This document shows, in pieces, positions 544 to 17,964 of a stretch of 29,328 nucleotides of DNA. The DNA comes from a virus. The DNA lies in IMG/VR virus record IMGVR_UViG_3300028388_003071, positions 1 to 29,328 of that record, one strand, 5' to 3'. The translations under genes and the position numbers were made by a program. A model generated the notes under the pieces. It saw nothing but the letters and a program-made list of their open reading frames with translations, made no database searches and was not told the DNA's origin. Numbering within the stretch: position 1 is the first letter of the stretch; every line of letters begins with the position of its first letter.

Positions 544-3500
544 GTGGGTGTAATTTACGTCCCTGATCCGGCCACGGGCAGGCCACAGCCGATCCAGATC
601 AGTGGGGCGACACCGACCCCCACTGAGCAGCAGCGCCTTGACCAGTGGATCGCCTCTCGGCAGCCCGTCGCGGCCCCGGCCCCGCCACCGGTAGAAGCCC
701 CGGATGATAACCCCGAGGGCACGGCTTTTGGCAGGGGCCTCTTTTCTGGTGGGTGGAGAACGGCCATTGGCTCCACCCTTGAGGGCGTGGGGATCGACAG
801 CCTCGGCGGCGCTCTCATGGAGAGCGGTGAGCGAGCAGCCCAAGAGGCTGACCTCATGGGCATCTCGGACATCGACGGCCTTGGCAGCCTCGGCAGTTTT
901 ACTGGTGAAGCGCTTGGTTCTTCGGCTGGTATCAGCGGACAGACGTTGGCCGGTGCTGGCGCTGGTGCCTTGGCTGGCGCTCCTCTTGGCCCGCTCGGCA
1001 TGTTGGCTGGCGGCGCGCTTGGTGGCGCTGCCGCAGCGTTTCCGATCTTCTACGGCCAGAACCGCGAAGCTCAGAAGGAGGCTGACCTAGAGGCAGGCCG
1101 TCCCATTGAGGTCGATGAGGGGACAGCTGCCCTCATGGCCATTCCTCAGGCGGCGCTCGACGCCATCCTTGGTGCGGCGACCTTTGGTGTTGGCCGCGTC
1201 CCGGCTGGCATCCTGACGCGCGTCGTCAAGGACGCTTCATCTGGCGCTGTGATCGAAGTGCCGACGGAAGTCGGGCAGCAGGTCCTCGAAGATGTGCAGG
1301 CAGGGCGTGACATCACGTCCGAAGACGCTCTCCTGAGGTACCGTGACGCGGCTATCGCTGGCGGTCTCGTCGGTGGCACAGTTGGCGGCGCGACAGCTCC
1401 GTTCTCAAGCAGGACCCCGGCTGGCCAAGCGCTGGTCAAGACCAGCCAGATCGAGCGCGATCTCAAGGAAGATGAGGAGCGTGCCGCGCAGCAGCAAGAG
1501 TACGCTATGGCGGTCGCCGATCTCGCAGATAAGGAGCTTGCCGAGCAGAACGCAATCGCCATGCAGCTCCCCGGCATCCGGGAGCAGCAGCAGGCTGAGC
1601 GTGAAGAGGCAGAGGCCCGGGTGCAGGAACTCCGTGCCGCCCTGAAGGAGAGCGCGGAACGCCGTGAGGCCGAGCGTGTCGCTTCCGACAGGCGCGCACA
1701 CGATGCCCGCATCCTCGCAGAAGACACGAAGAAGGATGCCATGCTTCAGCGTCAGGCGGCGATAGCAGCTGACAACGCAGCAGCAGAGGCAGAGCGCCGC
1801 CGAGGTCTCGCCAAGGGTGCGAAGGCTCAGCACGAGGCGATGAAGGCTGCGCAGGACAATGCTGCCGAAGCCGCTGTGAAGCGGAACCTTCAGCGTATCG
1901 AGCGTGAAAAGCAGGAGGAGGCGGCGCGTCTTGAGCGAATTGCCAAGAACCAAGAGAAGCTGGCCAAAGAAACCAAAGAGGCAGAGCAGGCTGCCAAGCG
2001 AGCCACCAAGCGACCCAAGCCCGAGGCCGCAAAAGACATCGAAGAAGCCGGGCCGACGGAGATTGAGCCCGTCGGCTTTTCTCCCTCACAAATCACCAGC
2101 CGGGCGGTAAGGGGCAAGGCCACTGCTGACTACGGAACTGACATGAAGTCCATCCAAGTGGTGGACAGTCCGAATGGTGAGTACGTGATTGAGAAGGTGG
2201 ACGGTGCGGGGACCCCGTACCCGACAGGCTTCTATGTGCGCCACGTTGATGACCCCACCAGTGAGGCGGTGTACATCGCCGACCGCCAAAAGGATGCCGT
2301 CGAGGAGGTGAAGACCTCGCTCTCGCGCAACGGGGACATCACGACGTTCAGCGAGATGACAACCGGTCGTGTCCCCCCGACAAAGCAGGCCCGCCAGCGG
2401 CGCTCCATAGCCCAAGAGGCGGACGCCGCAGCTGACAGCCTGTGGGCTCCGAAGCGAAAGTCACAGATTTCCCGGGTGCGTCAGGCTGGGCGGTCGCGTG
2501 TGGTCAGCGCGCCGCCCGGAATTGTTCAGTCCCTGCGTCAGGGCCTTGACCAAGTTGGCCTCAAGGATGTCGGCCTGAGCATGATGGGTGTCATCGACAA
2601 CGATGCGGCCATCGAGGGTGCTGAATACACCCAGCACGAGAAGGGCATGATCGCCCTTGCGCTGGACATCTACGATCCCAACCTCAGCGACACCGAGCTT
2701 GGCGCTCGCCTTGCCGATGTCCTGAACCATGAGATCATCCACTCCCTGCGGACGCTCGACCTGTTTAAGCCGGGTGAGTTTTCTGCTCTGATCAAGGCGG
2801 CTGCCACCCAGAACAAGGTGGGTCGCGACGGCAACCTCAGGAAGTACACCTACCTCGAATACGAGACCGCGAAAAACGAACGCCTCCCCGAGGCGGATCG
2901 CCTCACCCCATCTCAAGTCATGGAAGAGGCCGTGGCCGAGATGTTCCGCGACTACGCCAGCGGCAGGCTCAAGCTTTCTGGCAGGCCGAAGAACATCTGG
3001 CAGCGGATCGTCCGCTTCCTGAAGGGGCTGGCAGTTGGCGCTCAGGACGCAGGCGTGACCGATGCTGCCAGCATCTTCGCTGACATTCAGTCGGGTGCGA
3101 TTGGGGCCCGTGAGCGTGGCCCCCTTCTTGACAGGGGTGCCCAGACAAATTACAGCACAGCGTCTCGCGAAGGAGCGATCAATGACGGACGACGAGAAGT
3201 TGGATATGCGAGCGGAGGCCTTGCGCCGCTTGAAGGTGCGCCGAATGTTCGAGGGGCGTCGGGACCCGACGCAGCCCTTGTCCAAGCAGCCGAGCGGTAC
3301 GCCCGCGAGCAAGGCATACCCCTCGCCCGCCAAGCCGAGTTCGTCGAAGTAGACCCGGAGCGGGCGTCTCGTATCGCTGATGCGTATGAGCAGATGCCCC
3401 ATGATCCAACGGACCCGAAGGTCCGAGAGGCTTACGATGACCTGATCCGCCAGACCATGGACCAGTACCAGACACTGGTCGATGAGGGGTACAGCTTCAC

Positions 3501-6500
3501 CTTCTTCGATGAGGCTTCCGACCCCTATGACGGGAACCCGTGGAACGCGATGCGAGACCTGCGCGCGAACAAGTCCATGGCCGTATATGGAACCTATGAT
3601 GGCTACGGCACCGACGGCATCACCGCAGATGCTGAGCTGGACAATCCGCTGCTGGTGGATACCGGCCTTCGCTGGCCCGACCAGAGTGGCAGGGAGCAGG
3701 TGGTCACGGCGAACGACCTGTTCCGCGCCGTGCACGACGCCTTCGGTCACGGCATCGAGGGCGCTGGCTTCCGTGCGCGCGGAGAAGAGAACGCATGGCA
3801 AGCTCACTCCCGTCTGTTCTACGGCCCCGCCCTTGCCGCGCTGACTACTGAGACACGCGGCCAGAACTCGTGGCTCAACTACGGCCCCTACGGGGAGCAG
3901 AACCGCACCGCGTCTGTCGAGGACACCGTGTTCGCGCCGCAGAAGGCTGGCCTGATGCCTGAGTGGACATGGGCCGAGGGGCGCGCAGGGGACATGCGGT
4001 ACAGCCGCACCGGCGGCTCCAGCCCGATGCAGATCGGCTCGGCGTACGTCAAGAAGGTGGGCGTTGATCCCGGCGTGAGCGCAAACCCCGACCTTGTCGC
4101 GGGCATGGACCTGCTTGGACCGAAGAACATCGAAGCAGCCTCAAAGCTCATCAAGTCCTATAACTTGATGCCGGTAACATCGCGCAGCCCCGCAAGGATC
4201 GTGGAGGAGTTCATCGAGCACGTCCGCGAGAACCTGATGGACGTGTACAACCGCATCCCACCTGAAGTTCAGGAGGAGACGAAGCTCTGGTACGAGGGCG
4301 CTCGGCGCATTACCTCAGAGTTCGCGGATCGCTTCGGCGTGCCAGACCATGTCGTGGCTGCGATGATCGCGCGCACTTCGCCCAAGTCGGACTGGCATGT
4401 GAACGTCGCCCGGGTGGAGCGGATGCTCGACATCCTGACGAACGGTCGCGACATCGTGCTCGACCCCAAGATCAGGGCAGTGATGGAGAGCAACCCTCAC
4501 CTCGCCCAGTCCATCGACGCAGTTCAAGGCCGCACGTTCGGCGAGATGCTTGATGCAGCAAGCCGCAACCCGGATGTCTACTACGATCTGGTGCACTTCA
4601 TGCGCGGCATCGATGAGACGTACAACCCGACGCAGACCCGTCAATCGGACAGCCGGGGGCGCTGGCTGGAAGACACCAGCCAGACTTTCTCGTGGATGGA
4701 GACGAAGTTCCTCGGCGATGCGCTGCGCATCTACAACAATCAGGACTTGAACAGCATCAGCGAACTGATTGGCCAGCAGCACAAGGTTCGGTCGTTCTAC
4801 AACAACATCCTCGCCCCGAATGACCCGCGCGGGAACGCGACCATCGACACTCACGCGGTCGCGGTCGGCATCGTGAAGCCCATCGGCGCTCAATCCATCG
4901 AGGCGGTCCACAATTTCAACGCCCCCGGGGTCAACAACAGAACTCAGGGATCGGTCGGTATGTACCCGGTCTACCTTGAGGCCTATCGCAGGGCGGCTGA
5001 GCAGGCAGGCAGGCTGCCCCGAGAGATGCAGTCCATCACTTGGGAAGGTGCGCGGTCGCTCATGCCAGCCGGTGGCAAGACCAAGGCGTTCAAGTCGTTC
5101 GCTGATGAGCAGTGGGCGTCGTACAAGAATGGGCGACAGACACGAAAGGAGACAGTCGATGCAATCCTCGAACGAGCGGGTGGAAGCACTGAGCCAAACT
5201 GGTGGAGACATCGTATTGGCGAGGATGATCAAGGAGCAGGCTCCTCTTACGAGAGCGGAATATCTGAAGCGGAACGGCGTGACGGAGGAGACGGCCTCGG
5301 CGGAACTCCTCGCCGAGATGGAGGAGATGTTCCCTCTGACGGGGTAGCCAAGCGCTACTCAAAGCCTGCCGCCGTCACCTCCGGGCCGCTGGCCAGTGCC
5401 GAGGTCCGCGCCGAGCGCGAGATCGCCGTCGAGCATGGCGCGGTGCAGCGCAACGTGGCCAAGGTCTTTGGCTACCTGATCAGCCCGACCGATGCGGAGC
5501 GCATCTCTAGCAGGTTCTTCACCCTGACGCAGGACGCCTTCCTCCCCGTGGGGAAGGTGATCGATGAACTGCGTGCGGGCAACATCACGATCCCCGAGGT
5601 GTACGACACCTACGTTCAGGAGAAGCTGAAGCATGGTCGGGTCGGTGCCGCGATGGACCGGAACAGGGAGAACCTGTTTGAGCCAGCACTCATCGGCCTG
5701 AAGGGCCTTGATGTGAACGACGCCCAGATGGACAGCCTCAAGCGGGTGAGCGGATACGCTGCGGCCCGTGAGGATCAGGGCATTGCCGACATCCCCGGCT
5801 GGAAGAAGAGGGTTGGCAAGAAGCCGAGCCGCTCGATGATCGTGGCGGACGCCTACCTCTACGCTCTGCACGCGAAAGAGCGGAACGCCTACGGCGAGAC
5901 GGTCCTTGATACGAAGGACGCCTCAGGCATGACCGATGCTGAGGCGGACGCGATCATCGCATGGGTGAACGCCCTGCCGACGGAGCAAAAAACTCGGCTG
6001 AATGAACTGCGCGCCAACGTGAAGAAGATCGTGCAGGACACCAACAAGCGGCGCGTCGAGAGCGGCCTCATCCCTGAGGGGTTCACCGATCCCCAAGAGG
6101 TAGATGGCGAGACCGTTTACGACAACCGTGTCTTCACCGACTACATCCCGCTGCAAGGCAAGCGCGGCGAGGACATGGAGCTTGACGAGAACACCAAGAC
6201 CGCCGCCCGCCGCCAGCTTACAGGCCGCGAGGACCGCGTCATGCGTGGCCGGAGGGGTGTGTATGCAGGCCAGTCGCCACTGATGATGGTGATGGTGCAG
6301 AACTCGCAGGCCATCAACCGGGCGGAGACGAACAGGGTCATCAGGTCCTTCGCTGACCTCATCGCTCGTGAGCCTGAGGCAATGCAGGACATCGCGACCC
6401 TCACCGACAAGGGACCGAGGTCCCCGACAGATGAGCGCTACGTCGGGTACAAGGTGGACGGTGAGCAGAAGTGGATCGTCGTCGAACGCCCCTCTGTGGC

Positions 6501-8244
6501 AAGGGCCTTCGACAAGGGCCTGTCCCCTGCCAGCCTCGGCAAGCTCTCCGGCTTCATGTACAGTTTGAACCGGATGCTGTCGCAGCTCATCACCACGTAC
6601 AGCCCCGAGTTCCTGCTCACCAACTTCCCGCGAGATGTTGCGACCGCGTTGGTCAATGCATCTCAGTACGAAGTGGACAGCATTGCGAAGGGGATCGGCA
6701 AATCCATGTGGCCGTCCCTCAAAGCGGTCAGGGACTACACGATCCAAAACAAGCGCTCCGACGCGCCCCTCGACTGGTCGGTGAGGGCCGCAGAGGCAAC
6801 GCCTGAGCAACTTATCGCGCGGTATCAGGAGTTCATCGATGCAGGCGGTAAGCAGTTGGTCAACGAGCTATCTGACCTGTCCTCCGCCCGGCAGAAGATC
6901 GACAAGATCATGGCCGACGCTGGCGTCGATGGGGATCGCACACACGCAGGGAAGGTGCTGCGCTTTGCGCAGGACGGCATGGAGAACCTGAACGAGGTGG
7001 GCGAGAACATGTCCCGCTTCGCCTTCTACATGGCCATGCGTGAGAACGGACTTACCGCCACGAGCGCAGCATCTGCGGCGCGTGACCTGACCACCAACTT
7101 CTCGAAGAAGGGTGAGTGGGGCAGCATCATGGGCGCGTACTCGATGTTCTACAACGCATCCCTTCAGGGCTCGATGGCGCTGGTCACGGCAGCCGCCCGG
7201 TCAAAGCGTGTCCGCAAGGCACTCGGCGGTCTGGTCGCCGCTGGCTTCCTGTCGGACATGGTTCTCGGTGCTCTCTCCGAAGAGGACGAGGACGGCGTGA
7301 AGTATTACGACAAGCTCCAAGACTATGAGAAGGAGCACAACATCTTCATCCCCACTTTCGACGGTGGGTACATCTCGATCCCTCTGGCCTACGGCCTGAA
7401 CAACTTCTGGAACATGGGGCGGGCCACGTCAGCCGTCATACGAGGAGCGATGAGCCCGGCCCGCGCGGTCAACTCTGTCGCGGGAACTATGCTGGAGATC
7501 ATCAACCCGATGGGTGATGACCACGACATGTTGGCCCTCGTCTCCCCGACGATCCTCGACCCCTACGTCGCCCTCGCGAGCAACGAGGACTTCACGGGCC
7601 GCGCGATCTTCAAGGAAGGCATGCCGGGTCAGGTCGAGACATCGTCCGCATACCAGCACTGGAACACCACCTCGCCCACGTTCCAAGCGATCACGCAGGC
7701 AGTGAATGACATGACCGGCGGCAACGAGGTCGTGCCCGGTGCCATCGACTTCTCTCCTGATGTGGCGGAGTACCTGTTCAACTACTACACGGGCGGTCTT
7801 GGCCGGTTCATCAGCCGCACTCTCGATGCGCCTTGGACCATCATGCAGCCCATCGCTCAGGGATCATGGGACGGCGAGACAATCGAGGCAACGCCCATGC
7901 TGCGCCGCCTCTACACGATGCCGTCCACCCGTGGCGACCTCGGCTTCTTCCTTGAGCGCTTCGATGTCGTGCGTCTGGCCCGCAAGGAATACCAGACCGC
8001 CGTCGAGGCGGGGGACCGGCAGTGGGCATCCCGGGTGCGGGAAGAGAAGGGCCATCTGCTGAAGAAGTACATGGCAGCCAACGCCGTGAACGGCGCCCGA
8101 AGAAAGCTTGCAAGGCTGCGAGAGGCCGTGCTTGCATCCGACATGCCGGAAGAACAGAAGACAGAAAGGCTCCAGAAGATCGCCGACCAAGAGCGCAAGG
8201 TGGTAAGCCGGGGCATCGAATTGCTGAAGGACATCAACCCATGA
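544..8244 (+). CDS. Giant polyvalent virion protein (2566 aa)
   Basis: A GTG start lies 3 nt after the upstream stop; the SD is weak. The N-terminal ~300 residues are Gly/Ala-rich with a strongly hydrophobic patch near 135-175. Residues ~300-500 form a long charged Ala/Glu/Arg/Gln coiled coil. At 729-733 there is HEIIH, an HExxH zinc-metallopeptidase motif, with Glu794/795/799 as possible third ligands. Module B (~936-1540) contains AVHDAFGHG (1062-1070), seen in phage large polyvalent proteins, then a DUF7178-like helical region from ~1185. Module C (~1600-2566) resembles the LPD38 domain, with a signature near residue 2000 and hydrophobic patches near 2200-2240. Family knowledge: such proteins are ejected with or ahead of the DNA as multi-enzyme cargo. 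The location just before the lysis genes fits a late virion protein. Module names are from memory of families, not a search. Confidence 0.85.
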   Translation: MGVIYVPDPATGRPQPIQISGATPTPTEQQRLDQWIASRQPVAAPAPPPVEAPDDNPEGTAFGRGLFSGGWRTAIGSTLEGVGIDSLGGALMESGERAAQEADLMGISDIDGLGSLGSFTGEALGSSAGISGQTLAGAGAGALAGAPLGPLGMLAGGALGGAAAAFPIFYGQNREAQKEADLEAGRPIEVDEGTAALMAIPQAALDAILGAATFGVGRVPAGILTRVVKDASSGAVIEVPTEVGQQVLEDVQAGRDITSEDALLRYRDAAIAGGLVGGTVGGATAPFSSRTPAGQALVKTSQIERDLKEDEERAAQQQEYAMAVADLADKELAEQNAIAMQLPGIREQQQAEREEAEARVQELRAALKESAERREAERVASDRRAHDARILAEDTKKDAMLQRQAAIAADNAAAEAERRRGLAKGAKAQHEAMKAAQDNAAEAAVKRNLQRIEREKQEEAARLERIAKNQEKLAKETKEAEQAAKRATKRPKPEAAKDIEEAGPTEIEPVGFSPSQITSRAVRGKATADYGTDMKSIQVVDSPNGEYVIEKVDGAGTPYPTGFYVRHVDDPTSEAVYIADRQKDAVEEVKTSLSRNGDITTFSEMTTGRVPPTKQARQRRSIAQEADAAADSLWAPKRKSQISRVRQAGRSRVVSAPPGIVQSLRQGLDQVGLKDVGLSMMGVIDNDAAIEGAEYTQHEKGMIALALDIYDPNLSDTELGARLADVLNHEIIHSLRTLDLFKPGEFSALIKAAATQNKVGRDGNLRKYTYLEYETAKNERLPEADRLTPSQVMEEAVAEMFRDYASGRLKLSGRPKNIWQRIVRFLKGLAVGAQDAGVTDAASIFADIQSGAIGARERGPLLDRGAQTNYSTASREGAINDGRREVGYASGGLAPLEGAPNVRGASGPDAALVQAAERYAREQGIPLARQAEFVEVDPERASRIADAYEQMPHDPTDPKVREAYDDLIRQTMDQYQTLVDEGYSFTFFDEASDPYDGNPWNAMRDLRANKSMAVYGTYDGYGTDGITADAELDNPLLVDTGLRWPDQSGREQVVTANDLFRAVHDAFGHGIEGAGFRARGEENAWQAHSRLFYGPALAALTTETRGQNSWLNYGPYGEQNRTASVEDTVFAPQKAGLMPEWTWAEGRAGDMRYSRTGGSSPMQIGSAYVKKVGVDPGVSANPDLVAGMDLLGPKNIEAASKLIKSYNLMPVTSRSPARIVEEFIEHVRENLMDVYNRIPPEVQEETKLWYEGARRITSEFADRFGVPDHVVAAMIARTSPKSDWHVNVARVERMLDILTNGRDIVLDPKIRAVMESNPHLAQSIDAVQGRTFGEMLDAASRNPDVYYDLVHFMRGIDETYNPTQTRQSDSRGRWLEDTSQTFSWMETKFLGDALRIYNNQDLNSISELIGQQHKVRSFYNNILAPNDPRGNATIDTHAVAVGIVKPIGAQSIEAVHNFNAPGVNNRTQGSVGMYPVYLEAYRRAAEQAGRLPREMQSITWEGARSLMPAGGKTKAFKSFADEQWASYKNGRQTRKETVDAILERAGGSTEPNWWRHRIGEDDQGAGSSYESGISEAERRDGGDGLGGTPRRDGGDVPSDGVAKRYSKPAAVTSGPLASAEVRAEREIAVEHGAVQRNVAKVFGYLISPTDAERISSRFFTLTQDAFLPVGKVIDELRAGNITIPEVYDTYVQEKLKHGRVGAAMDRNRENLFEPALIGLKGLDVNDAQMDSLKRVSGYAAAREDQGIADIPGWKKRVGKKPSRSMIVADAYLYALHAKERNAYGETVLDTKDASGMTDAEADAIIAWVNALPTEQKTRLNELRANVKKIVQDTNKRRVESGLIPEGFTDPQEVDGETVYDNRVFTDYIPLQGKRGEDMELDENTKTAARRQLTGREDRVMRGRRGVYAGQSPLMMVMVQNSQAINRAETNRVIRSFADLIAREPEAMQDIATLTDKGPRSPTDERYVGYKVDGEQKWIVVERPSVARAFDKGLSPASLGKLSGFMYSLNRMLSQLITTYSPEFLLTNFPRDVATALVNASQYEVDSIAKGIGKSMWPSLKAVRDYTIQNKRSDAPLDWSVRAAEATPEQLIARYQEFIDAGGKQLVNELSDLSSARQKIDKIMADAGVDGDRTHAGKVLRFAQDGMENLNEVGENMSRFAFYMAMRENGLTATSAASAARDLTTNFSKKGEWGSIMGAYSMFYNASLQGSMALVTAAARSKRVRKALGGLVAAGFLSDMVLGALSEEDEDGVKYYDKLQDYEKEHNIFIPTFDGGYISIPLAYGLNNFWNMGRATSAVIRGAMSPARAVNSVAGTMLEIINPMGDDHDMLALVSPTILDPYVALASNEDFTGRAIFKEGMPGQVETSSAYQHWNTTSPTFQAITQAVNDMTGGNEVVPGAIDFSPDVAEYLFNYYTGGLGRFISRTLDAPWTIMQPIAQGSWDGETIEATPMLRRLYTMPSTRGDLGFFLERFDVVRLARKEYQTAVEAGDRQWASRVREEKGHLLKKYMAANAVNGARRKLARLREAVLASDMPEEQKTERLQKIADQERKVVSRGIELLKDINP
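3182..3352 (+). CDS. Nested small gene in the +1 frame of the giant virion gene (56 aa)
   Basis: ATG at 3182 is preceded by a perfect AAGGAG (3170-3175) with 6-nt spacing; the stop is TAG 3350-3352. The first ~25 residues form a charged amphipathic helix starting MTDDEKLDMRAEAL, followed by a Ser/Pro/Lys-rich tail. The frame overlaps residues ~880-936 of the giant protein, which there read as a low-complexity Gly/Ala/Pro linker between the metallopeptidase-like module and module B. The SD, placement on a linker, and a second identical arrangement at 5159 favour a real overprinted gene or the relic of a once separate one. No family recognised. Confidence 0.5.
   Translation: MTDDEKLDMRAEALRRLKVRRMFEGRRDPTQPLSKQPSGTPASKAYPSPAKPSSSK
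5159..5347 (+). CDS. Nested small gene in the +1 frame of the giant virion gene (62 aa)
   Basis: ATG at 5159 follows GGAG (5148-5151, within AAAGGAGA) with 7-nt spacing; stop TAG 5345-5347. The product has balanced, protein-like composition: a helix through EALSQTGGDIVLARMIKE, then a TRAEYL segment and an acidic helix ending in a short hydrophobic tail. The giant protein reads this interval (residues ~1539-1601) as a Gly/Asp/Ser/Glu low-complexity linker between module B and the LPD38-like module. The small frame therefore looks more like the selected one here. Function unknown; possibly a small virion or scaffold-like protein made with the giant protein. Confidence 0.6.
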   Translation: MQSSNERVEALSQTGGDIVLARMIKEQAPLTRAEYLKRNGVTEETASAELLAEMEEMFPLTG

Positions 8245-8450
8245 CCGAAGGAAAGCTCTGGTACCAGTCGCGCACCGTGTGGCTCAACATCATGACGGCA
8301 TTCATCGCTTCGATGAATGAACTGCTTCCGCTGCTCGACATCATGGACCCTGAGGCCGCTGAAGGCCTTCGGTCCCTCATCATCATGGCAAACGTGTTCG
8401 GCAACGTGTGGCTACGCGTGCTGACCGCACAACCGCTGAGGCTCAAATGA
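8241..8450 (+). CDS. Small membrane protein, candidate holin (69 aa)
   Basis: The start ATG overlaps the giant gene's stop (ATGA). AAGGA at ~8228-8232 serves as SD with about 9-nt spacing. The product begins MTEGKLWYQSRTVWLNIMTA and has two moderately hydrophobic helices (about 13-32 and 45-62) separated by an acidic turn. Small proteins with the W-x-x-S-x-T-V-W-L-N opening commonly sit directly before the phage endolysin. A holin or holin-like role is inferred from size, hydrophobicity and position, not from a diagnostic motif. The stop overlaps the endolysin start (ATGA), indicating coupled translation. Confidence 0.6.
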   Translation: MTEGKLWYQSRTVWLNIMTAFIASMNELLPLLDIMDPEAAEGLRSLIIMANVFGNVWLRVLTAQPLRLK

Positions 8451-9067
8451 GAAAACTCAGGAGAATTTTTGTCCACACGTCGGCGACCAGCCCAACGTGG
8501 ATGAACGACGCAACCCTCGATGCCAAGATCGCAGAGATCAGGCGCTGGCATGTCGAGGACAATGGCTGGTCCGACATCGGTTACCACTACATCATCGACC
8601 GCAACGGGGCGGTGGGACAGGGCAGGCCCGTCTCCCAGATCGGCGCTCACGTGGGCGGGCACAACCACGACAGCATCGGCATCTGCCTGATCGGCGGCAG
8701 GGGTGGCAACGAGAACGACGAGTTCTTCGACCACTACACCAAGGACCAAGACATGGCCCTGCGCATCCTGCTGGCTGACCTGCAGAACGAGCACGGCACC
8801 ATGTCCATCCATGGCCACAACGAGGTGGCTGCCAAGGCCTGCCCCTGCTTTCAGGTCAAGCGCTGGCTCAAGAAGAAGCCCGCCGTCAAGATGCCGAAGG
8901 AGACCGTTGCTGAGACAGGATTGGCCGGTTCCGTGGCCGGTTCAGTGGCCGCTGCAAGCGGCGCTGCGTGGCAGGTCAGTGGTGAGGAGGGGATGATGTA
9001 CGCCGCCGTTGCTGGCGCGCTCGTCGCCCTTGTTTTCCTTGTCATGTATTTCAGGAACCAGAGGTGA
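8447..9067 (+). CDS. Endolysin: T7-lysozyme-like N-acetylmuramoyl-L-alanine amidase with C-terminal membrane anchor (206 aa)
   Basis: Cleaves the amide bond between MurNAc and the peptide stem of peptidoglycan. The Amidase_2 core spans residues ~5-140. Visible zinc and catalytic residues match T7 lysozyme: H10 (FVHTSAT), Y46, H122 in IHGHNE, K130 and C132 in KACPCF. After the catalytic domain comes a Gly/Ala-rich linker and a hydrophobic helix (about 182-201) ending in FRNQR. This membrane segment is absent in T7 lysozyme and suggests a membrane-tethered enzyme. Start chosen at ATG 8447, overlapping the holin-like stop; an earlier in-frame ATG (8408) lies inside the upstream gene. The stop overlaps the next GTG. 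Confidence 0.9.
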   Translation: MRKLRRIFVHTSATSPTWMNDATLDAKIAEIRRWHVEDNGWSDIGYHYIIDRNGAVGQGRPVSQIGAHVGGHNHDSIGICLIGGRGGNENDEFFDHYTKDQDMALRILLADLQNEHGTMSIHGHNEVAAKACPCFQVKRWLKKKPAVKMPKETVAETGLAGSVAGSVAAASGAAWQVSGEEGMMYAAVAGALVALVFLVMYFRNQR

Positions 9068-16218: not shown

Positions 16219-17964
16219 GTGGTGGACACCGAGATTGAGCAGATCGTTTCCCGTTTGGGATGGGGGCAGCACCGGGTGCTGTGCCCTTTCTGCGCGCCGC
16301 TTCGCAAGAAGAAGAAAGTCGAAGACCTGTCGGTTAAGGTCGATGCCGATGGAGCCACCTACCTGTGCCATCACTGCGGAGAGAACGGGTCGGTCAAGGC
16401 GCAGGCCGTGAAGGAGCAGAGGAGGCAGAAGCCGGTGAAGAGAGTGAAGGTCGAGAAGGCCGAGCCGAAGAGCGAGGTCGTTCAATACTTCGCAGATCGT
16501 GGGATATCAGAGGCCACCCTGACGGCGGCAGGCGTGGGGCAGGACTTCCGATGGTTCCGAAAGCTTGAGCGCGAAGAGCACTGCGCAGTCTTCCCGTACA
16601 GGGACAAGCACGGCGAGACCTACGCAGCGAAGTACGCCACCGCCAGCGCCACCGACAAGGATCACTCGTGCGATGGGGCACCGCAGAGCCTGTGGCTGGC
16701 AGATCAGGTGGAGGACTGGGAGGAGGTTGTAATCACCGAAGGGGAGAAGGACACGTTGGCCATGATCGAGGCAGGCGTGATCAACCCGATGTCCATCCCC
16801 AACGGTGCGCTGAACCCGGGCACGAAGAACGTCGAGCACAAGCTCCGGTACATCGACAACCACGCGAGCAGCATCGAGAAGTCCAAGCGGATCGTGATCG
16901 CCATGGACAACGATGACCCGGGCAGGTTCACCGCCAAGGAATTGTCCCGCCGCTTCGGCAAGGACAGGTGCTTCCTCATCGAGTACCCCGAGGGGTGCAA
17001 GGATGCGAACGACATCCTCCTGAAGGAGGGCGCGGAGGGCCTGCTGCAGCGCGTGAAGGAGGCCAAGCCGTACCCGGTTGAGGGGGCAATGACCGACGCG
17101 CAGGTGACCGAGCAGGCGCGCAGGATACGGGAGCAGGGGGCCCCTAAAGGGGCTCCTACGGGGCTTCCAGAGCTCGATGCGATCTACAGCGTGCCGACAG
17201 GCAAGCTCACCGTCGTGACCGGGCACCCGGGATCAGGCAAGAGCCAGCTCTTGGACCAGATACTGGTCAACCTCGCGCACAACGACGGCTGGCGGACAGG
17301 GGTGATCGGCTTCGAGAACGACCCGGGCTCACACCTCAATGAGCTGTCTCACATGTGGCTCGGGAAGACGTGTTACCCCGGGCAGTACGGTGCGGCGTCC
17401 GAGTACGAGGCTGAGCGTGCCGAGGCCTTCATCTCACGGCACTTCAAGTGGGCGGAGATCGATGACCAGATGCTGACGGTTGATCGCATCCTTGAGATCG
17501 CGAAGGGCTGGGTCAGGCGCGTGGGGATCAGGGCCTTGGTGGTGGACCCCTTCAACTACATTTCAAAAAACTATGGTGAACAATCCGAGACGGACTGGAT
17601 CAGTACGATGCTGTCACGGTTCAAGCAGTTTGCCATGGCGCATGACGTGCATGTGTTCTTCGTGGCCCACCCGACGAAGATGCAGAAGCATGCGGACGGG
17701 GCTCTGCCCGTGCCCACGGGCTACGACATCTCGGGATCGGCTGCGTGGTTTGCCAAGGCGGACCTCGGCCTCACGGTACACCGGCCCAACCCGGGCGAGG
17801 CACACGAGACGACAGAGCTACATATCTGGAAGGCGAAGCGGTCATGGATGGGGAAGGTGGGCAAGGCAAGCTTCTGGTACTCGCCCGACGCTCATCAGTA
17901 CGTGTCGATGGGATCGCTCCCCAACGTCAGGAAGCTCGTCGAGCCCGTCGAGGTGCCCTTCTAA
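16219..17964 (+). CDS. Bifunctional DNA primase-helicase, T7 gp4-like (581 aa)
   Basis: Makes RNA primers and unwinds DNA at the fork. The zinc ribbon is C22-P-F-C25 and C50-H-H-C53. The TOPRIM core has ITEGEKD (E174) and IAMDNDDPG (D230, D232). A linker follows, then a RecA/DnaB-type helicase with Walker A GHPGSGKS (335-342) and Walker B ALVVDP (D443), plus the FFVAHPTK helicase segment. Both T7 gp4 activities are therefore present in one chain. The start is GTG 16219 or GTG 16222, with GGGG just upstream as a weak SD. The TAA overlaps the stop of the convergent gene. No polymerase gene is in the window. Confidence 0.93.
   Translation: MVDTEIEQIVSRLGWGQHRVLCPFCAPLRKKKKVEDLSVKVDADGATYLCHHCGENGSVKAQAVKEQRRQKPVKRVKVEKAEPKSEVVQYFADRGISEATLTAAGVGQDFRWFRKLEREEHCAVFPYRDKHGETYAAKYATASATDKDHSCDGAPQSLWLADQVEDWEEVVITEGEKDTLAMIEAGVINPMSIPNGALNPGTKNVEHKLRYIDNHASSIEKSKRIVIAMDNDDPGRFTAKELSRRFGKDRCFLIEYPEGCKDANDILLKEGAEGLLQRVKEAKPYPVEGAMTDAQVTEQARRIREQGAPKGAPTGLPELDAIYSVPTGKLTVVTGHPGSGKSQLLDQILVNLAHNDGWRTGVIGFENDPGSHLNELSHMWLGKTCYPGQYGAASEYEAERAEAFISRHFKWAEIDDQMLTVDRILEIAKGWVRRVGIRALVVDPFNYISKNYGEQSETDWISTMLSRFKQFAMAHDVHVFFVAHPTKMQKHADGALPVPTGYDISGSAAWFAKADLGLTVHRPNPGEAHETTELHIWKAKRSWMGKVGKASFWYSPDAHQYVSMGSLPNVRKLVEPVEVPF

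Follow-up and report, generated by a model that had tools for sequence, protein, structure and literature searches.

A small phage gene predicted within the +1 frame of a giant polyvalent-type gene accompanies the DUF7178 module in other phages and prophages

We analysed a stretch of viral DNA of 29,328 bases (an IMG/VR virus record, hereafter the window) and conclude with high confidence that a 62-codon open reading frame (ORF), small1, nested in a giant gene in the +1 frame, is a real gene initiated separately from the one around it. Judged from sequence comparison, small1 represents an undescribed phage protein family, and nearly wherever the DUF7178 module (module B) occurs, a gene of this family overlaps its 3' end. 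The bases 5145-5165 read AAAGGAGACAGTCGATGCAAT, with GGAG at 5148-5151, the spacing of 7 nt to the start codon being that given by the first-pass annotation. The ORF ends with the stop TAG at 5345-5347, has a start and a stop of its own and lies wholly inside another ORF of the same strand (GTG 544-8244), in the +1 frame. Across small1 the host frame encodes GSTEPNWWRHRIGEDDQGAGSSYESGISEAERRDGGDGLGGTPRRDGGDV, a linker of Gly, Asp, Ser and Arg, in line with the linker character previously ascribed to it. Read in the +1 frame, 5159-5344 has G+C contents of.62/.43/.74 at the three codon positions, compared with.65/.46/.76 in typical coding sequence of the window; read in the host frame, the values are.74/.62/.43. 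When the giant gene was scanned with sliding segments of 62 codons, the two largest phase flips fell on small1 (0.323) and on a second nested ORF starting at 3182 (small2, 0.306), while elsewhere the flip reached at most 0.21 over 2259 segments. The flip in codon-position G+C indicates more than chance, and the homologues that occupy this position in other phages decide the matter; both agree with the earlier reading of the ORF as protein-like. Coordinates of the features are collected in the table.

Table. Features of the giant gene and its predicted nested genes; positions refer to the window.
Feature	Position	Strand	Remarks
Giant polyvalent-type gene	544..8244	+	2566 aa, GTG start; LPD38 at aa 2255-2432, DUF7178 at aa 1225-1297 and beyond
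small2, second predicted nested +1 ORF	3182..3352	+	56 aa; tied to the 5' end of A2; profile matches and phase flip
Module A2 region	3352..4149	+	64-79% identical among 80 contigs listed of 311 confirmed relatives
Module B (DUF7178, phrog_3842)	4150..5163	+	carries nested small1 at its 3' end
Shine-Dalgarno AAAGGAG	5145..5151	+	7 nt upstream of ATG 5159; read from the sequence, SD-like motif before most homologous ATGs
Host Asp codon GAT followed by G, creating the nested ATG	5158..5161	+	
small1, predicted nested gene	5159..5347	+	62-aa protein MQSSNERVEALSQTGGDIVLARMIKEQAPLTRAEYLKRNGVTEETASAELLAEMEEMFPLTG; +1 frame of the giant gene; phase flip, profile match, homologues
Host-frame SSY	5242..5250	+	same bases encode the start of small1 PLTR

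As a lone query, the 62-aa product found no match by tblastn against phages or in viral contigs, and the family surfaced only through loci fetched with the neighbouring module and through profile searches. One of the alignments was too diverged to be scanned for patterns. Module B (query aa 1203-1556) retrieved 80 viral loci at about 35% identity, whose six-frame translation gave 14,083 ORFs. Among these, each of the best matches of the 62-aa query is a small ORF on the plus strand, located where B ends on its 3' side. An iterated HMM then settled on a single ORF in each of 78 of the 80 loci, and no further ORF passed the threshold. All 78 are situated at the 3' end of B and 77 of them lie in the +1 frame relative to B; the sole viral locus with the small gene in the other frame (+2), L051:2341-3001, likely reflects a frameshift or a sequencing error. 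In most homologues from the 80 loci the ATG is preceded by an SD-like motif. The profile of the relatives, with the window row excluded, matched the window ORF with E=3.7e-9, and the same profile detected a +1 ORF within a giant 'methyltransferase' gene of the isolate Rhodobacteraceae phage LS06-2018-MD07 (E=4.5e-5). Since the profile was seeded with the window ORF as query, independent samples matter. Genome contigs provided one such sample, with small1 in 14 out of 20 loci, including Jannaschia, Pseudofulvimonas and Bradyrhizobium. Among loci fetched through module A2, small1 was found in 10 of the 12 that have B and in none of the 68 that lack it (Fisher p=4e-11). Of the 124 loci in which B is clearly matched, 109 carry the small gene at the same spot, contradicting the possibility, named in the first-pass annotation as grounds for rejection, that homologues are absent everywhere; the 15 loci without a detectable small gene are mostly divergent or truncated.

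Members of the family, present in more than 100 other phages and prophages, are 55-73 aa long, mostly helical and share the motif G...PLTRxxYLxxxY..G.P....AE.EA.LPE. Some of their genes lie within giant polyvalent genes, others where a stand-alone virion gene ends, and yet others in prophages. Pfam, PHROGs and NCBIfam yielded no credible match for the family, plausibly because gene callers suppress genes inside genes, and a literature search found no paper that describes the nested gene. Other small proteins gave nothing or weak matches only in tblastn against isolate phages. Searches for a close DNA relative of the window returned none, its B being at most 39% identical to those found, and a search for closer relatives of this B in 397 genomes of the family of the Jannaschia locus recovered the Jannaschia locus alone.

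As the window is without a close DNA relative, selection was measured in the relatives and not in the window genome. Substitutions were counted in 21 disjoint pairs of nested relatives, the rows of which are related. Per site, at B positions 1/2/3, they change from.052/.025/.231 upstream to.148/.052/.066 in the overlap, where the first positions of B are the third positions of the small gene. In the overlap of these pairs, residues of the small frame change at 0.107 and those of the host frame at 0.174, compared with 0.052 in upstream B. The shift of substitutions to small-frame third positions, together with the lower residue change, implies that the small frame dominates the overlap. Hence the nested frame is both conserved and constrained in the relatives, and 12 deep relatives are likewise more identical in the small frame (0.36) than in the host frame (0.27). 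The start is retained as well: among the 29 distinct start contexts listed, which come from loci with an identified ATG (as nearly all have), the host codon giving rise to this ATG is AAT, GAT or CAT before G and never NAC, and this choice persists even at GC3 of about 0.9.

The host frame is supported as being constrained too, in relatives whose rows are related. Its identity among the 12 deep relatives is 0.265 versus 0.186 ± 0.006 after synonymous shuffling, and no stop interrupts it along the small gene in 50 of 53 distinct cases (related rows), where chance predicts 4.1 of 53 from host codon usage or 13.7 of 53 when its own codons are shuffled. In the window alone, an open host frame across small1 is unsurprising (p 0.16-0.20) and no host-frame test is decisive. 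Nine giant-type or related loci encode PLT of the small protein by CCT-CTT, which the host frame reads as SSY or ASY (the window and L031, L079, L001, L095, L061, L127, L166 and L093). These codons are rare, with frequencies of 0.056 and 0.008 in L079, and GC3 is 0.75-0.92 in several of the nine loci, reaching 0.92 in the giant type. The SSY pattern counts as support and not as proof, as the motif was spotted post hoc and four of the loci form one clade.

The giant protein combines several unrelated domains, among them an LPD (LPD38) and DUF7178, and thus falls among the polyvalent proteins; the order in the window is A1-small2-A2-B-small1-C. Module B scores above the gathering score of Pfam PF23802. 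Its distant relatives in S-CRES3 and Cece carry a DNA glycosylase/lyase annotation; an HhH-GPD glycosylase reading found no PDB fold match at E<=0.001, and B had neither a PDB sequence match nor a Pfam glycosylase match. Module A2 is far more conserved than B, and its relatives (80 viral contigs listed of 311 confirmed) are mostly inside giant ORFs of 2000-4000 codons. No relatives emerged from a scan with module C. The giant protein has NYS/RYS motifs close to the borders of its modules, namely NYSTAS, RYSRTG and RYSKPA (at 3151, 4000 and 5356; aa 870, 1153 and 1605), which are possible processing sites. Directly 3' of the giant gene lies an amidase endolysin (8408-9067), and a primase-helicase is encoded at 16219-17964.

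The arrangement of B and small1 varies among the loci. About 50 of the 80 viral loci have a stand-alone B whose 3' end spans the entire small gene, the stop of B usually lying 38 nt beyond that of the small gene. Elsewhere B stops early within the small gene (the L038 type, L057, L059, L077 and L099), the short overlap being in the +1 frame in the L038 type and L099; L098 and L107 have a short +2 overlap. The small gene is not nested in L101 and L110. Finally, B can be part of a giant ORF that continues for hundreds to thousands of bases, as in the window, L031, L053, L061/L075, L079, L095, the L172 group, Bradyrhizobium and others. On a quick tree of B, in which many forks are uncertain and the window sits on a long branch, the layouts require at least about 20 changes, suggesting that nesting and fusion were gained or lost several times; given those forks and that branch, the tree does not settle the direction of change.

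Sequence comparison shows that the ORF at 3182 represents a second nested family of the same sort. The small2 profile, with the core ETEEDGIRAEALRRLKVR, matched 73 ORFs from other loci; each of them is +1 and nested in the ORF that bears A2, immediately upstream of this module. As A2 is itself well conserved, some of the similarity towards the C-terminus may stem from it. In L188:5618-5938 and L145:5567-5929, small1 and small2 are joined as one nested ORF between B and A2, and L096:8947-9333 is probably such a fusion too. The first-pass annotation had placed both nested genes between modules and attributed the giant gene to a fusion of three genes that kept the small genes once between them. 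The placement is upheld, since both ORFs are conserved, +1 and at a module border. The fusion origin stands in part: the modules are separable and carry their small genes with them (L031 has the order B-small1-small2-A2), but the overlap does not need fusion, as it is the same where B stands alone. The number of three fused genes is not established, for in the window A2 runs into B with no nested gene between them, yet the two are separate modules elsewhere. We tentatively propose, as a possibility and not as the probable case, that giant polyvalent genes are built from cassettes of a module plus a nested partner gene in the +1 frame of the linker. If so, modules could shuffle or fuse into ever larger proteins with the partner retained, and the nested genes themselves could fuse in the hidden frame, as in L188, L145 and probably L096.

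Several other explanations of the +1 ORF were weighed. Long open shadow frames are common in GC-rich genes, and the ORF list of the window holds many open frames of 50-120 codons, thus small1 could be a chance open frame or its conservation a shadow of the host-frame sequence. The chance of this is negligible in our estimate, as small1 shows the largest phase flip of the giant gene, recurs in loci sampled through another module, changes less per residue than the host frame with substitutions gathering at its own third positions, and is the more identical frame in the deep relatives; for the small1 family this explanation is refuted. A flip of codon phase would also be expected from two compensating frameshifts, natural or due to assembly errors, with the +1 frame being the ancestral linker of the giant protein. 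Here the flip starts at the Shine-Dalgarno sequence and ATG and stops at the stop codon, the layout recurs in more than 100 contigs including an isolate genome, and some relatives have the +1 product as a separate gene after B; we set this explanation aside as least credible of all. Programmed frameshifting out of B, in place of an own start, would fit the +1 relation in nearly all loci and the small frame that is open well upstream in L031, L060 and L093. The conserved ATG with SD-like spacing, the host codon choice that preserves it and the +2 or non-overlapping arrangements in L098, L107 and L101 make it highly unlikely, and it was likewise set aside. It is also conceivable that translation of the giant frame does not extend across the linker, with B and C made as separate products and the frame open across small1 by chance, as the low-complexity linker and the 16-20% chance of openness in the window alone would permit. 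We consider this improbable given the host frame open in nearly all distinct cases of the relatives and the retention, in giant-type loci with GC3 up to 0.92, of the rare CCT-CTT codons giving host SSY.

We thus favour a nested gene with its own start. Some ribosomes would enter at the internal Shine-Dalgarno sequence of the giant mRNA and produce the small1 protein, while others would read the giant frame straight through, and the linker would, through internal entry and read-through, be dual-coding. Concerning function, linkage suggests that the small1 protein may be a partner of module B, since its gene follows B and not the rest of the genome; we hold this to be slightly short of an even call. 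It would serve B as a chaperone, an assembly or holding factor, or an inhibitor, and would act while B is produced and loaded into the virion. A structure model of small1 is weak (pLDDT 72), and a fold search in BFVD returned no informative match, the best being A0A516LVL4 (E 0.24). The somewhat less probable alternative is a free-standing phage protein, either a host-directed effector or a small component of the virion, its gene being only a passenger at the 3' end of B. In favour of this, small1 comes with start signals of its own, can follow B un-nested (L101, L110), and in L188 and L145 is fused in the nested frame with small2, which accompanies another module, so its role need not be specific to B. 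On the other hand, small1 was never found without B in the A2-fetched loci and tracks B through module rearrangements. With a partnership in mind, small1 is a candidate partner for an abundant virion-associated module, and the linkers of polyvalent proteins are a place to seek further hidden genes.

The giant gene product resembles the polyvalent proteins (Iyer et al. 2017, PMC5512222) in being a giant multidomain phage protein with LPD38, encoded near virion or lysis genes; a word search of the main text of that paper gave no sign of nested genes. The L012 locus, with B and a nested gene between gp14-like and gp16-like genes, is similar to the T7-type cassette of internal virion (ejection) proteins, differing in that the nested small gene matches no PHROG family. 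The classic nested +1-frame pair of phages is that of the Rz/Rz1 spanin genes of phage lambda. As in Rz/Rz1, a small gene with its own start lies inside a larger one in the +1 frame, with both frames here predicted to be in use. An Rz1-type spanin is a proline-rich outer-membrane lipoprotein; in the small1 translations, read by eye, no lipobox, signal peptide or membrane segment is evident, and the product (P0001) contains neither Cys nor a hydrophobic signal stretch. In contrast to Rz/Rz1, the host of small1 is a virion or polyvalent gene, and small1 goes with one module, DUF7178, across many layouts. It is a clear case of dual coding that has persisted while genes were repeatedly fused and modules shuffled.
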